Positions 12,894 through 44,692 of a DNA stretch of 64,000 nucleotides are shown here, piece after piece. Where the stretch lies: assembly GCA_024275955.1 (NCBI GenBank), contig JAJRYD010000036.1, forward strand, positions 1 through 64,000, read 5' to 3'. The notes beneath the pieces are model-generated. The model searched no databases, was not told the DNA's origin, and saw nothing but the letters and a program-made list of their open reading frames with translations. Made by a program: the position numbers and the translations under genes. The first letter of the stretch is position 1; each line of letters starts with the position of its first letter. This stretch comes from Nitrospirota bacterium (GTDB lineage: Bacteria > Nitrospinota_A > UBA7883 > JACRGQ01).

Positions 12894-13556
12894 CTACATT
12901 GAAAGGTACTCGTTGGTGAACTTCTGGTAATTAAGGAGGACAGACTTGGAATATTTAGGATTTAACTTTTTGCCTTTCCTTATCGCTTTGCGTACGGCGT
13001 TTGGGCCTCGGTTATAAGCTTCCAGCGCAAACTCGATATTTTCAAATTTTCCTATCAGCTTGGATAGGTAGTGGATACCAAGCGTTATGTTTACCCTGCC
13101 GTCATTAAGGCTTCCTGTCTCATAGCCGGCCAGCTTTATTTCCCGCGCAACTTCCTCGCCGGTAGGGGCCATCAACTGCATAAGGCCCCTTGCCCCTTTG
13201 TTGGAAACGGCATAGCGGGAAAAAGAGCTCTCGGTTTTTATAACTCCCATCACCAAAAGGGGGTCAAGGTTGTACGCTCTGCTTTTTTTAAGTATCAGCT
13301 TGGCAATTTCTCTGGGGCTGTGTCCGAGCCTTTTCTCAAACTTGGAAAGTAACCCTTCAATTTTCGTCAAAATTTCGGCCTCACGTTTCATTTCCCTTGT
13401 TTTGGACTTAAGGTAGATAAGCTCCGAGTCGAGCCAGAGCTTCTCTTGCTCAAAATCGAGTGCTTTCGCACGGTAGTACTCAGTCGCTTGCAGGCAGACA
13501 AAGCCTACAAGCAGGCTCAGAGACAAAAATCTATAGAAAGAGCTTTTTTTACTCAT
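12894..13556 (-). CDS. Membrane-anchored lytic transglycosylase (SLT domain)
   Basis: The 220-residue protein has an N-terminal membrane anchor (about 9-25), a helical linker that is probably coiled coil (about 35-80) and an SLT/lysozyme-like domain (about 90-205). Catalytic Glu109 lies in GVIKTESSFSRYAVS, followed by GARGLMQLM, NITLGIHYLSKL and ALEAYNRGP, the classical family 1 motifs. Such enzymes cut peptidoglycan between MurNAc and GlcNAc, forming anhydro-MurNAc. The ATG at 13556 has a GGAG six bases upstream; a second ATG at 13568 is possible. It is divergent from the giant gene at 13855. Confidence 0.88.
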   Translation of the reverse strand: MSKKSSFYRFLSLSLLVGFVCLQATEYYRAKALDFEQEKLWLDSELIYLKSKTREMKREAEILTKIEGLLSKFEKRLGHSPREIAKLILKKSRAYNLDPLLVMGVIKTESSFSRYAVSNKGARGLMQLMAPTGEEVAREIKLAGYETGSLNDGRVNITLGIHYLSKLIGKFENIEFALEAYNRGPNAVRKAIRKGKKLNPKYSKSVLLNYQKFTNEYLSM

Positions 13557-13755
13557 CTGTTTCTCCATATATTCCGTAAAGACGGTTATGGTTGTTTGGG
13601 AGACTAATCGAATAACGAAAACGCAACATCGCCTATTAGGCTGTCTACAATTTACGTTTGGAACAAATCTTGTCTAATGTATAGGCTATGTTGATAATCC
13701 CACCGGCTTTTCGGTGTAGATTAGAGTGTATTTGACGGAAAAGGTCAATAGATTT

Positions 13756-13854: not shown

Positions 13855-16800
13855 ATGCTGTTAAGCTGTCCCAAGTGTCGTAGCGGCTACGAAGTTGATA
13901 GTGAGTCAATTCCTAAGGAGGGTACTTACGCCCATTGCACTTCGTGCGAGAATATATTTTTTGTAAAGCACAAAACAACCTCTGGCACTAGCGAAGATAA
14001 GCCTCCCTCCGACAAGCCCGAGCCTTCCCAAACGCTCGGCGAAGAGGGCTCTTTTCCTGATTCTCACGATACCAGCGAAGGCGAAACAATAGCAAAATCC
14101 TTAGAGTCAGATTCGGACGATGGTGACGATTCGGATATTAATGATATCTCTACTAAAGCTTTCTTTTCTGAAGATATTGAAGATGACAAAGAAGATTTTA
14201 GCAGAACTCAGTCACTCTCTGCCCAAGCGGCCGAAGAGGCTTTGGGTGAAACCGAAAAATATATACTTGGAGAGAGAGGCGGTATAGAACCTGATGAGAG
14301 CCTTCAAGACGATACGGGGCAGGAGGAAGCAGAAGTTGAGTATCTTGAGAATGATGTTCTGCTGGAAGCCGATGACGACGATATCCTCATTAGCGATGGC
14401 GGAGATGACGGGCTAGAGGTTGACAGCAGTTTAGATTTTGGCGAAGGGGTAGATGTAGTAGATGAAAATGCGGGAGACGACGATTCTATCAAACTTCTCG
14501 ATTCCCAAATTGGTGAAATAGTACCCGAGGAGGTTTGGACAAAAGATTCTGCTAAAGCCGAACCTGACGACGATGTAATCTTAGAAAACTCCGACGATAA
14601 AATAGTCGAGACCATTCTGCAGGCCGATTCGGACCAGCCGGAGCCTGCCCAAACCGGCTCAGAAGTGTCAAGCTCCTCTGAATCCTCCTCAATGAAACCT
14701 GAGGCAATAAGGGACCCAAGCGATATTGATACTCTTTTCCTTGACGTGCAGGATGCTTTTGATGACGCGGATGAGGAGAACCCGGCCGCCTTAATAGAAA
14801 ACATGGACGATGTAGATGAAACTCCTCAAGAAAGTGTTGTGGAGGAAGAAACTGTTTTGGCTATCGCCCAAACTGTAGATGAAAGCGGGACGAAACAGGC
14901 CGAAGATGAAGCAGTTTCCACAGGTGATGGTTCACCGGCAGTTGAGACTGCCGGCAATAATACCGATAGCGAAGTAGATATCGAAGATATCGGCGCTGTA
15001 GCCGCGGATATTTCGGGTGAAATCGAAGTTGAGGACGGGTCGGAGGAGCTTGACACTAACGAACTGGAGTCAATTTTTGAGAGTGTAAATAACGCCGAAC
15101 CAGAGCCTGTTCCAGACGAATTGATAGATGAAATGCTTAGCGAAGATAAACAAGGTGGAGGTCTGCTCGACGAAATACTCGACGAAGGTTCTGCCGCCGA
15201 GGAGGGTAAAACTTTTGAGGTTCCAGAGCCAATAGATGACGAGGTCGACTCCAAGCTTTTCGGCATTAAGGGTAATGAGGGTACAAGTGTTCTTCCAGAA
15301 GATGCGATCGACTCTGTTCTTCAACATGCCGGTGACGGAAAAAGTGAAGATATCGAATCTGTCTTTGAACCGGGTTCCGATGAAGATGAAGATATTACAA
15401 GCTTTCTAGATGAAACTATGTCCGGCGAAGACGACGATGCGAACTTGCTGGATAGCGACATGGAAGCTATTTTTAGTGAAGGAGAGTTAGAGGCGGCTGT
15501 GCAAAAAGATGGCGTGGAAAAACCTCAAGCACCTGAAAAGCCCAAACCGAATCTTCAAGACGGCATAGATGCTCTTTTTGAGTCAAGCGTCAGTGGGCAG
15601 GAAACCGATGCCGAAAAAGAGGAAACGGTAGGCGACTTGGAGGCTATTGTAGATGCCGGAAGCGAAAAAGCTGTCGACGCGCAAAGCGAGATAGACGCTC
15701 TTTTCGAATCTTCGGCAAAGGAAGCTGAAAAATTACCTCAAGACGATCTCGAGGCATTTATTGACTCCGAGAGCAGTCTAAGCGAATCTTCCGTAGCGGA
15801 TGAAATACTAGGCGGCAATTCAGCTAAAGAGGAGCCTGCAAAAGAAGCGTCTGGTCAGGACGATATAGACGCGATATTTTCTGCCAACGCGCCAGAGGCA
15901 GAAGCGAAAGCAGATGATGGCGGTTCAGCCTCTGGTCAGGACGATATAGACGCGATATTTTCTGCCAACGCACCGGCGACAGAAGCGAAAGCAGATGATG
16001 GCGGTTCAGCCTCTGGTCAGGACGATATAGATGCGATACTTTCTGCCAACGCACCGGCGACAGAAGCGAAAGCAGATGATGGCGGTTCAGCCTCTGGTCA
16101 GGACGATATAGATGCGATATTTTCTGCCAACGCGCCAGAGGCAGAAGCGAAAGCAGATAATAGTGGTTCAGCGTCTGGTCAGGACGATATAGATGCGATA
16201 CTTTCTGCCAACGCGCCAGAGGCAGAAGCGAAAGCAGATGATAGTGGTTCAGCGTCTGGTCAGGACGATATAGACGCGATACTTTCTGCCAACGCACCAG
16301 AGGCAGAAGCGAAAGCAGATGGTAGTGGTTCAGCGTCTGGTCAGGACGATATAGACGCGATACTTTCTGCCAACGCGCCAGAGGCAAAAGCGAAAGCAGA
16401 TGATAGTGGTTCAGCCTCTGGTCAGGACGATATAGACGCGATACTTTCTGCCAACGCGCCAGAGGCAAAAGCGAAAGCAGACGAACCGCAGGAAGAGGCT
16501 CCTGCTGGAGATGGGTTAGTCTCTCAGGGCGATCTTGATGCTCTTTTTGCATCGGATGACCCTGCAGAGGAGAGTAGCTTGGCCGAAGATACCGCTGGAG
16601 CCGATGGTGCCGATTTAACAGAATCTGTAGGAATCGACACTGGTGATGAGCTGGAGGATCTTCTTTCTGAAACAGTCGATGTAGGTGCTGATGCTGGGTT
16701 GCCTGATGATGAAGCTGGTGTGTCAGTCTCTCAGGATGATCTTGATGCCCTGTTTGAATCCGAAGGTGGCGGGGATGCCGGTTCTAGTCAATCGGAAGAT

Positions 16801-17793
16801 GATGACCTTTTTAGCGAGGATGCCCAAGGGGACGGCGATATAGAATCTCTTATAGGTTCGGAAGCCGATACGGCGGATGAAGGTTCTGGCGAGGATGAGA
16901 GCATAGGCATAGATACTTCCATGCTGGAGTCGCTCGATGATGAACTGGGGGATGAAAAAGAGGCAGAATCTTCAGATGATGTTATGTCAGAAGAAGAGGC
17001 CGCCGCTTTGGTTGATCAAGGTGAAGATGGTGATGGAGAAGCTAAAAAGATAAGCTTCGGCACTCTTTTTTCTGGAAGCAGAAAAAAGAAAGCGGTGATG
17101 GCTGGTGTCGCTCTGTTGCTGGTAGCGCTTGGCGTAACTTTTTTCTACTACAAAGATACCTTTTTGCCTTCCGATAGCGAAGATATAGTTGCTCAAACAG
17201 GTGAGATAGTCGGCACCATAATTGAGCAGCCTGCTGTAATGGACGAACCTCTAGATGAGGCGGGGGAGGCTGTTGCCGAGAAACCAGCGGAATTTGCAGA
17301 AAGCGTTGAAGACGATTTTGCGGTTGTCGATGATGATTTTGTGGCTGTCGATGACGATGTAAAAGCGGAAGCGAAAGTAGCCCCCCAAAAGGAGGCAGGA
17401 AGAACAGCTCAAAAAAATGAGCAGGCAAAAGAGACCGCTTTTGCCCAGACTGGCAAAGCAGATGATGAGACTGTAGATTTTGCGGAAGGTAAAGATGTGA
17501 AGTTTGGGATAATAGTACCTGTCGATTACAATGCTCAGGCAGTTAGAGTAATGACAGCCGATGTAATGATAACCTTTAAAAGCTCGCAGGAGCGTGTTTC
17601 TGCCGAGAAGAAAAGGTTTTTATATGAAATGGCTATTGAAGACGAAATAGAAAAGTTTTTTCTGGAAAAATTTTATGAAGATACCCATTACGTTCAGGAC
17701 AAAATAATCGCCGACCTTAACAGCAAGTTTAAAAAGCGCCGCGATATGGGGAAAATTGCTGAAATAGATATTCAGAACTTCAAGCTTCGTTAA
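13855..17793 (+). CDS. Giant acidic membrane protein: MJ0042 zinc ribbon, FliM-like motif array, TM span, FliL-like end
   Basis: The 1312-residue protein opens with an MJ0042-type zinc ribbon (Cys5, Cys8, Cys28, Cys31). About 1000 very acidic, probably disordered residues follow. They contain a motif resembling the FliM N-terminus (LSQxEIDALL): SDIDTLF near 289, LQDGIDALF at 567, QSEIDALF at 610, eight tandem SGQDDIDAI[FL]S units from 666 to 881, SQGDLDALF at 890, SQDDLDALF at 959, plus weaker variants. A basic SRKKK precedes one membrane span (about 1081-1101), predicting a cytoplasmic N-tail. The last ~100 residues (VRVMTADVMITFKSS to IAEIDIQNFKLR) resemble the extracytoplasmic domain of FliL. 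A role as a multivalent docking protein for receiver or motor proteins is inference. The ATG at 13855 lacks a clear ribosome site. Confidence 0.8.
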   Translation: MLLSCPKCRSGYEVDSESIPKEGTYAHCTSCENIFFVKHKTTSGTSEDKPPSDKPEPSQTLGEEGSFPDSHDTSEGETIAKSLESDSDDGDDSDINDISTKAFFSEDIEDDKEDFSRTQSLSAQAAEEALGETEKYILGERGGIEPDESLQDDTGQEEAEVEYLENDVLLEADDDDILISDGGDDGLEVDSSLDFGEGVDVVDENAGDDDSIKLLDSQIGEIVPEEVWTKDSAKAEPDDDVILENSDDKIVETILQADSDQPEPAQTGSEVSSSSESSSMKPEAIRDPSDIDTLFLDVQDAFDDADEENPAALIENMDDVDETPQESVVEEETVLAIAQTVDESGTKQAEDEAVSTGDGSPAVETAGNNTDSEVDIEDIGAVAADISGEIEVEDGSEELDTNELESIFESVNNAEPEPVPDELIDEMLSEDKQGGGLLDEILDEGSAAEEGKTFEVPEPIDDEVDSKLFGIKGNEGTSVLPEDAIDSVLQHAGDGKSEDIESVFEPGSDEDEDITSFLDETMSGEDDDANLLDSDMEAIFSEGELEAAVQKDGVEKPQAPEKPKPNLQDGIDALFESSVSGQETDAEKEETVGDLEAIVDAGSEKAVDAQSEIDALFESSAKEAEKLPQDDLEAFIDSESSLSESSVADEILGGNSAKEEPAKEASGQDDIDAIFSANAPEAEAKADDGGSASGQDDIDAIFSANAPATEAKADDGGSASGQDDIDAILSANAPATEAKADDGGSASGQDDIDAIFSANAPEAEAKADNSGSASGQDDIDAILSANAPEAEAKADDSGSASGQDDIDAILSANAPEAEAKADGSGSASGQDDIDAILSANAPEAKAKADDSGSASGQDDIDAILSANAPEAKAKADEPQEEAPAGDGLVSQGDLDALFASDDPAEESSLAEDTAGADGADLTESVGIDTGDELEDLLSETVDVGADAGLPDDEAGVSVSQDDLDALFESEGGGDAGSSQSEDDDLFSEDAQGDGDIESLIGSEADTADEGSGEDESIGIDTSMLESLDDELGDEKEAESSDDVMSEEEAAALVDQGEDGDGEAKKISFGTLFSGSRKKKAVMAGVALLLVALGVTFFYYKDTFLPSDSEDIVAQTGEIVGTIIEQPAVMDEPLDEAGEAVAEKPAEFAESVEDDFAVVDDDFVAVDDDVKAEAKVAPQKEAGRTAQKNEQAKETAFAQTGKADDETVDFAEGKDVKFGIIVPVDYNAQAVRVMTADVMITFKSSQERVSAEKKRFLYEMAIEDEIEKFFLEKFYEDTHYVQDKIIADLNSKFKKRRDMGKIAEIDIQNFKLR
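15850..16497 (+). repeat. Eight tandem 81-bp repeats inside the giant acidic protein gene
   Basis: Eight consecutive in-frame units of 27 codons begin with tctggtcaggacgatata, each encoding SGQDDIDAI-F/L-SANAP followed by a variable acidic spacer. Units differ at few bases (for example GAG GCA versus GCG ACA, ttt versus ctt), indicating recent homogenisation and likely copy-number variability. The reverse strand is open through the array, but this is a by-product of the repeat. Confidence 0.95.
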
Positions 17794-18354: not shown

Positions 18355-19020
18355 ATGCCGAAAATAATGATCGTTGATGATGACCCAAACATAGCATTAC
18401 TGCTGGAGCTTACCCTTAAAAAGGATTCTGGGTTTGAAGTGGTCAAGTTCATAAACGGTCAGGACGCTTTGGACAACATAGAAAAAGAGAAGCCAGATCT
18501 CATTTTACTTGACGTGATGATGCCGGGCTTAGACGGCTACGAAGTTTGTCGGCGTATTAAATCTTCAGAGAAGACTAGATATGTATCTGTCATAATTCTT
18601 TCCGCCAAAAGGGAGCTGGAAGACAAAATTAAAGGAATGAGCATCGGAGCCGATGATTACATAGTAAAACCGTTTAACCCTGAGGAATTGCTTGTAAGGG
18701 TGTATGTTCAGCTTCGGATGAGAAAGCTGGAAGTGGAGCTGGTCGACAAGAAAAAACTGGAAACCGTTCTTGCTATGTCTGTAACGATGCAACACGAAAT
18801 AAACAATCCGCTGGCTGGAATACAAGGCAATGCTGACCTGCTGAGAGATTGGCGCGACATGGAGGAAAGTGAAGTGGATGATCTGGTGAATATAATCCGT
18901 GAACAGACAAAAAGGATCAATGTGATAATGAAGGAGATGTCATCTGCTACAAAAGTGGCGGAAACGTCGTACCTCGGCTCTACCAAAATGATAAATTTAA
19001 AAAAATTAAAAGATGATTAG
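18355..19020 (+). CDS. Receiver domain fused to phosphoacceptor (HisKA) domain, no ATPase domain
   Basis: Residues 1-120 form a complete receiver: acidic pocket VDDD at 7-10, phosphoacceptor Asp53 in LILLDVMMPGLDG and Lys105 in YIVKPF. After a short helix, residues about 135-205 form a HisKA dimerisation domain with His147 in MQHEINNPLAGIQGNADLL. The protein ends at 221 with no HATPase domain, so it cannot phosphorylate itself; the His could pass phosphate to or from another protein. The stop is only 34 bases before a MITE-like element, so loss of a 3' part is possible, although no kinase remnant is seen after it. It sits downstream of the giant FliM-motif protein, a possible receiver-binding partner. 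Confidence 0.82.
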   Translation: MPKIMIVDDDPNIALLLELTLKKDSGFEVVKFINGQDALDNIEKEKPDLILLDVMMPGLDGYEVCRRIKSSEKTRYVSVIILSAKRELEDKIKGMSIGADDYIVKPFNPEELLVRVYVQLRMRKLEVELVDKKKLETVLAMSVTMQHEINNPLAGIQGNADLLRDWRDMEESEVDDLVNIIREQTKRINVIMKEMSSATKVAETSYLGSTKMINLKKLKDD

Positions 19021-43030: not shown

Positions 43031-44692
43031 CTACATCATGCCGGGCATACCGCCCATGCCGCCCATTCCACCCATGCCGCCCATATCCGGCATACCGCCG
43101 CCTGCCGGTTTTTCTTCCGGTGCTTCGGTTATTATTACTTCGGTGGTAAGCATAAGGCCTGCCACGCTTGCCGCGTTCTGTATGGCGGAGCGTGTTACCT
43201 TCGCAGGGTCGATGATGCCGGCTTTCACCATATCGACAGACTTTTCAGCCTGCGCGTCAAAGCCGTTATCGCCTTTTTGCTTTTTCACTTCGTTGATTAT
43301 TACAGAGCCTTCAAGCCCAGCATTCTCGACTATCTGGCGCAAAGGCTCTTCTAAAGCTCTTGCTATGATGGCAACGCCGACTTCCTGATCGTGGTTGTCG
43401 CATTCTACTTTTTTAAGGGAATCAATACAGCGGACAAGAGTTACGCCGCCGCCAGCGACTATACCTTCTTCGACAGCTGCGCGGGTAGCATGAAGGGCGT
43501 CTTCTACTCTGGCTTTCTTTTCCTTCATTTCGATTTCGGTAGCGGCGCCTACATTAATAACCGCGACACCGCCTACAAGCTTGGCGAGCCTTTCCTGAAG
43601 CTTTTCGCGGTCGTAGTCGGAGCTGGTCTCTTCTACCTGCGTGCGAATCTGCTTTACTCTTGCCTGTATATCTTTGCCAGTGCCTTTGCCTTCGATAATC
43701 GTGCTGTTATCTTTGTCTATAACGACACGCTTGGCGGTACCGAGGTCGGCGATTTCGACATTCTCAAGCTTTAGGCCGATATCTTCGGATATTGTTTTTC
43801 CGCCGGTGAGGACTGCTATGTCGTTGAGCATTTCTTTTCTGCGGTCGCCAAAGCCCGGAGCTTTAACAGCTGAAACATTGATGGTGCCTCTAAGCTTGTT
43901 TACAACAAGAGTGGCAAGAGCTTCGCCTTCGATATCTTCGGCTATGATAAGAAGCGGTTTGCTCATCTTCGCGATTTTTTCGAGAAGCGGAAGCATATCT
44001 TTCATGTTGGAAATCTTTTTCTCGTAAATGAGGATTAGCGGGCTGTCCATCACGCATTCCATCCTGTCTGCATTGGTAACGAAATACGGCGAGAGGTAGC
44101 CTCTGTCGAACTGCATACCTTCCACAACGTCGAGCGATGTATCCATGCTTTTGGCCTCTTCAACGGTTATAACGCCGTCTTTGCCGACCTTTTCCATAGC
44201 TTCGGAAATAAGCACTCCGATGGTGGCATCGCTGTTGGCGGAGATTGTTCCTACCTGAGCTATCTCTTTTGGCTCTTTGGTAGGCTTGGCAACTCTTTTG
44301 ATTCTAGCAACTACCGCTTCAACAGCTCTGTCTATCCCGCGCTTTACATCCATAGGGTTCGCGCCAGCAGATATGTTTTTAACACCTTCTCTAAGTATTG
44401 CCTGTGCAAGCACTGTAGCAGTGGTTGTGCCGTCGCCTGCCACGTCGGAAGTTTTGCTCGCTACTTCGTTTATCATCTGAGCGCCCATGTTTTCGTATGG
44501 GTCGGACAGCTCTATCTCTTTGGCAACGGTTACGCCGTCTTTGGTTACGAGCGGCGAGCCGAATTTTTTGTCAATAATAACGTTTCTACCTTTAGGTCCA
44601 AGCGTAGCTTTGACGGCGTTTGCCATCTGGTTTACTCCGCTGAGAATTTTGGCCCTTGCGGCCTCGTCAAAGAGCATCTGTTTACCGGCCAT
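43031..44692 (-). CDS. groEL: Chaperonin GroEL (60 kDa)
   Basis: The 553-residue protein forms the tetradecameric folding chamber. It begins [22 protein letters not shown] and shows the ATP site [10 protein letters not shown]-type ([18 protein letters not shown]), [12 protein letters not shown] and the C-terminal GGM repeat tail ([12 protein letters not shown]...). Length is standard. It follows groES after a 41-base gap, and the pair is controlled by a CIRCE site upstream of groES. Only this groEL is visible in the window. Confidence 0.98.

Follow-up and report, generated by a model that had tools for sequence, protein, structure and literature searches.

A gene within a 64,000-nucleotide window of a Nitrospirota bacterium genome (GTDB lineage Nitrospinota_A; contig JAJRYD010000036.1) encodes a 1312-residue membrane protein that joins an N-terminal zinc ribbon, a long acidic tail, a single membrane span, and a C-terminal domain with a FliL-like fold. 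The tail harbors an array of short motifs resembling the N-terminal peptide of FliM (FliM-N), and the gene is linked to flagella across its phylum. The protein may be a flagellar accessory membrane protein that collects a FliM-N ligand, with phosphorylated CheY (CheY-P) as the lead ligand, a reading that has slightly less than an even chance of being correct. Its more specific form, a motor- or stator-anchored multivalent antenna that sets the CheY-P level seen by the switch, is put forward more tentatively.

The open reading frame is real, and its anatomy is confirmed to be that described in an earlier prediction made from the sequence alone, namely a zinc ribbon, an acidic tail, and one span with a basic cytoplasmic side. 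The CxxC…CxxC ribbon (residues 1-36) scores 34.6 bits with PF13717 (cut-off of 30.3) and 22.6 bits with TIGR02098, above the curated cut-off of 20.9. The tail (residues 37-1060) holds 313 aspartates and glutamates and 43 lysines and arginines. The span (residues ~1080-1098) follows an SRKKK sequence, with about 1075 residues predicted on its cytoplasmic side and the C-terminal domain predicted to be the extracytoplasmic end. DUF3426 is the usual C-terminal partner of MJ0042 ribbons, and it found no match here in the Pfam scan. An artefact or a chance repeat is excluded by shuffles, a reversed-pattern control, and conservation in the family.

The C-terminal end had been predicted to be FliL-like, and this holds for the fold, though without a match to the FliL sequence family. 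The AlphaFold2 model of residues 1213-1312, built on the family alignment, has a predicted local distance difference test (pLDDT) score of 88 and the element order β-β-α-α-α-β. Its closest solved structure is Helicobacter pylori FliL (7sgn; Z 11.5, root-mean-square deviation 2.7, 95 aligned residues), followed by Vibrio alginolyticus FliL (6ahq; Z 10.8) and then by SPFH proteins from 9.5 downward. As a yardstick, a model of the genome's own FliL gives Z values of 17.2 and 13.7 to 7sgn and 6ahq, respectively; its element order is near-identical, with one extra four-residue helix. Alignment of 16 family members is gap-free over the last 100 residues. On the basis of the model, the domain is a divergent FliL/SPFH fold with FliL as its nearest neighbor.

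The domain is nevertheless termed FliL-like and is not assigned to the FliL family because neither the sequence models nor the conserved residues fit. A PF03748 search of the whole genome matches two other genes and misses this one, the NCBIfam FliL models do not recognize it, and the domain does not share the invariant residues of FliL. A HMMER search of the domain profile against the PDB returns just weak matches to non-FliL proteins. An ordinary FliL with a long tail is ruled out, as far as family membership is concerned, on the same grounds. The two share a single span followed by a predicted periplasmic C-terminal domain, but characterized FliL proteins have 2-28 cytoplasmic residues (PMC10127578), far fewer than the tail protein. 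The genome also encodes a canonical FliL, directly before fliM in the fli operon on contig C29, as well as a second FliL-domain protein of 195 residues (L036:1480-2067 on G000:C21, minus strand; PF03748 40 bits), which lies outside the fli operon and adjoins a HEAT-repeat protein. Together with the tail gene, this amounts to three FliL-fold proteins in one genome.

The N-terminal LSQxEIDALL peptide of FliM binds phosphorylated CheY, and FliL works at the stator. The tail carries motifs with an SQxEIDALL-like core, most of them in the form GQDDIDAI[FL], which occurs in eight copies in perfect 27-residue register (residues 667-864). Three further strict motifs (AQSEIDALF, SQGDLDALF, and SQDDLDALF) bring the strict total to 11, and about six degenerate ones, admitted under a looser rule, bring it to 17 (residues 289-1002). 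Shuffled tails yield a mean of 0.0015 and a maximum of 1 under the strict rule, and a mean of 0.25 and a maximum of 4 under the loose rule; with shuffle counts near zero, the array stands well above chance. The original prediction had counted at least 13 copies of [SQ]xDDIDA[IL][FL]. That literal pattern has no match in the protein, and the count hangs on the rule applied, while the excess over chance stands.

The motif is shared near-exclusively with FliM. A degenerate DNA pattern for Q[DE][DE][ILVM]DA, run through all 24 Nitrospinota genomes of the phylum sample, matches all 18 FliM N-termini, the tail gene, and six scattered others, including an SMC-like, a dehydrogenase, and an ScpB-like frame; a reversed control pattern has no match in these genomes. 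The likeness to the EIDALL peptide of FliM and FliY lies in an SQ-acidic-[IL]-D-A-[IL]-[LF] core. In contrast to the single N-terminal copy of FliM and FliY, the motif is found in many tandem copies inside a tail, and the protein that bears it is a membrane protein and not a known part of the C-ring. A phmmer search of two repeat units against PDB sequences gave no match.

Array length is very variable among relatives, with natural variants spanning about 2 to 19 motifs, and the window's own copies are 95% alike in DNA, so the present array is recent. Both facts would suit a low-complexity tail that has expanded selfishly or neutrally and binds nothing, which is nonetheless very improbable. 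Array units measure 20, 21, 25, 27, or 30 residues in different genera, with different spacers around the same core, indicating that the core was amplified more than once and separately in different lineages. In the window array, the only differences among the SGQDDIDAI[FL] motifs are an F/L exchange and a single synonymous site; the spacer holds several amino-acid changes. Members with few copies still retain SQxDLD[AS]L[LF] on the membrane side, and the form most common to family members is the membrane-side [IV]SQxD[LI]D[AS]L[LF].

Relatives, which are mostly Nitrospinota, were revealed by a whole-genome search and an alignment-based profile scan; a scan of the genome collection with the C-terminal sequence alone found none. 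The domain profile matches 16 of the 24 genomes, all of which encode FliM (found in 18). FlhF is above its cut-off in 18 genomes, among them G010, in which no FliM was found and which is therefore probably flagellated. The five genomes with neither FliM nor FlhF lack the tail gene. A 17th copy comes from G020, which encodes FliM but escaped the profile: a contig there breaks off within the gene, leaving its zinc-ribbon start next to the transglycosylase gene described below. With this copy, the gene is present in 17 of 19 flagellated and in none of five non-flagellated genomes (Fisher p = 0.0005; with absences in at least two lineages, the effective sample is small). The link to flagella, as originally proposed, is borne out; rather than being confined to non-flagellated relatives, the full gene occurs solely in genomes with FliM. 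CheA-type kinases are encoded in 23 of the 24 genomes; hence, the gene tracks the flagellum and not those kinases.

In non-flagellated G014 (99% complete), the site between the transglycosylase gene and gatB is empty, whereas in flagellated G011 the gene sits between the two. Non-flagellated G006 retains a 535-residue ribbon-tail-span protein (L149:5579-7183) without the FliL-like domain or the motif array; it is a natural truncation with one leftover EDIDALL. The gene was not found in two flagellated genomes, both with fragmented assemblies: G003 has about 410 contigs and G010 about 320. In at least five other genomes, assembly breaks down at the repeats, cutting the gene at contig ends (L099, L100, L101, L153, and L155); absence in a draft genome therefore calls for caution, and these two are probably, though not provably, gaps. 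In near-complete G011, the gene is split over two frames within the repeats (L028:7600-10083), the cause being a faulty assembly or a frameshift at the array.

We infer a position at the motor, a ligand, and an effect on rotation for the protein. The periplasmic FliL-like domain would probably dock on the stator, the FliL ring, or the basal body, and the long disordered acidic tail would hang in the cytoplasm, where its roughly twelve weak versions of the FliM N-terminal peptide may gather many molecules of a FliM-N-binding protein beside the motor. CheY-P is the first candidate for this ligand, in which case the tail could serve as an antenna or buffer, raising the local concentration for the FliM switch or competing with it. 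The zinc ribbon at the far end may bind a further partner, and the motif copy number would be tuned by tandem duplication. The N-terminal side of FliL can restrain the motor (PMC10127578). A FliL-like anchor with many such peptides would most simply serve to collect a FliM-N ligand locally.

The ligand has at least one candidate besides CheY: FlhG also binds the FliM N-terminus, in monotrichous bacteria (PMC12826062; PMC11236974). A tail that collects FlhG, a MinD-like ATPase that sets flagellar number, would be a scaffold for assembly or placement, similar in function to HubP/FimV with reversed topology, and not a part of chemotaxis. This serious alternative is on the unlikely side, yet it would accord with the tracking of flagella over CheA-type kinases, the distribution of FlhF noted above, and a MinD-like ATPase gene adjoining flhF in this genome, whose product begins with MDQAGTLRR (cf. 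the FlhG N-terminal DQAxxLR). One flagellated genome has the gene and no flhF that could be found, which counts against FlhG, although its assembly is incomplete (G004; 82% complete).

Several observations weigh against the collector proposed here. Where FliM has V, its N-terminus being Q[DE]EVDAL in every copy in the phylum, 114 of 116 tail motifs have I or L, and the Q is missing from many of the amplified units (SASDIDAIF); the ligand or its affinity may therefore differ from FliM's. PF03748 reaches a best E of only 0.063 against the 16 family members, and an hhalign comparison of the domain with Nitrospinota FliL is insignificant (probability 1.8%). The gene sits outside any flagellar operon, adjoining a transglycosylase gene, plus gatB in several relatives, rather than a fli/mot operon. 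The strongest point against CheY as a fixed ligand comes from G315, the sole match outside Nitrospinota in a wider search of 385 genomes (E 7e-17). This flagellated relative shares the plan from the zinc ribbon and tandem acidic repeats through the span to the FliL-like end, and it also has the divergent transglycosylase, but its tail repeat is QDDMDLDGLMDDIL while its FliM retains SQSEVDALL, which indicates that the plan is wider than the FliM-like motif.

The same relative lends weight to a reading of the protein as an envelope scaffold that is coupled to the lytic transglycosylase next door, in which the FliL-like domain and the enzyme would open or organize the cell wall for the flagellum, the tail would bind a ligand unrelated to that of FliM, and the FliM likeness would be a convergence of short acidic amphipathic helices. 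The divergent enzyme gene adjoins the tail gene in 15 of the 16 Nitrospinota loci with a readable 5′ side (the exception is G023) and in G315, where architecture and neighbor are retained without the motif. The top NCBIfam match of the enzyme is NF047373, a flagellar assembly lytic transglycosylase of the Borrelia BB0259 type, at 106.9 bits and below the cut-off of 234. Nevertheless, the enzyme is kept in non-flagellated G006 and G014, so that its presence is independent of the flagellum; soluble lytic transglycosylase (SLT) matches occur in every genome; and the motif is common almost solely to FliM and the tail gene. Such a scaffold is unlikely.

On the other side of the gene, the protein encoded at 18355-19020 combines a receiver with a HisKA/DHp-like domain and lacks an ATPase domain, an unusual arrangement. 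The original prediction pointed to it as a receiver of the kind that the tail could collect. Among the relatives, only the sister genome G002 has a receiver-HisKA protein of this size next to the gene, within a larger syntenic block; other loci have at most larger receiver/kinase paralogues in variable positions (e.g., 719 residues in G018). A dedicated partnership is not supported on this basis. The flagellar reading of that prediction stands for the fold, the motifs, and the flagellar link, though not for the neighboring receiver. Elsewhere in the window, a short tandem repeat of 9/18 bases (CATGCCGCC) occupies 43037-43085, at the end of a minus-strand open reading frame.

Table 1. Coordinates of the tail gene, its parts, and its divergent neighbor in the window
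Feature	Coordinates	Strand	Basis
Whole gene (zinc ribbon, acidic motif tail, membrane span, FliL-like domain; 1312 residues)	13855..17793	+	Open reading frame with ATG start; also matched by profile in 15 further Nitrospinota genomes, with a 17th copy cut off at a contig end
N-terminal zinc ribbon (MJ0042 / Zn_ribbon_4 type), residues 1-36	13855..13962	+	PF13717; conserved in aligned family N-termini, including out-of-phylum G315
Motif-bearing part of acidic tail, residues 289-1002 (11 strict and 17 loose FliM-N-like motifs)	14719..16860	+	Comparison with shuffles
Eight tandem 27-residue units, each SGQDDIDAI[FL]SA; 95% DNA-level matches	15847..16494	+	
SQGDLDALF, membrane-side motif of the kind most shared in the family	16522..16548	+	
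SQDDLDALF, membrane-side motif of the kind most shared in the family	16729..16755	+	
Single membrane span, residues ~1080-1098, basic SRKKK on cytoplasmic side	17092..17148	+	Hydropathy 2.31 over 19 residues
FliL-like (SPFH-fold) domain, predicted periplasmic	17491..17790	+	AlphaFold2 and fold searches; gap-free alignment across 16 members
Membrane-anchored lytic transglycosylase (SLT), divergent neighbor	12894..13568	-	PF01464, 93 bits

Each element of the protein is known, and the arrangement is new as far as the open-access literature shows. MJ0042 single-span proteins, including Myxococcus GltJ, likewise have a zinc ribbon, a long disordered cytoplasmic part, and a span. In contrast to these, the tail protein ends in a FliL-like domain and has no match beyond the ribbon; the truncated G006 protein matches the GltJ model weakly at the ribbon (25 bits versus a cut-off of 450). 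HubP/FimV polar scaffolds share a long acidic cytoplasmic repeat tail, a membrane anchor, and a link to polar flagella, but the tail protein has the opposite membrane topology and no LysM match in the Pfam scan. In the open-access literature, no description of this combination of parts was found, in agreement with the original prediction, nor was anything on MJ0042/DUF3426 proteins; none of the ten best matches there joins a zinc ribbon to FliL, the stator, or CheY.

If the proposed collector is correct, the motor would use multivalent short linear motifs, better known in eukaryotic signaling, to concentrate a signaling protein, at a dose that evolves via repeat number. The protein would then represent a new class of flagellar control element and give a concrete form to the poorly understood link of FliL between cytoplasm and stator. 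The natural variants in motif number could test local-concentration models of motor switching. Even with FlhG as the ligand, the protein would be a new flagellar assembly scaffold in a little-studied phylum.

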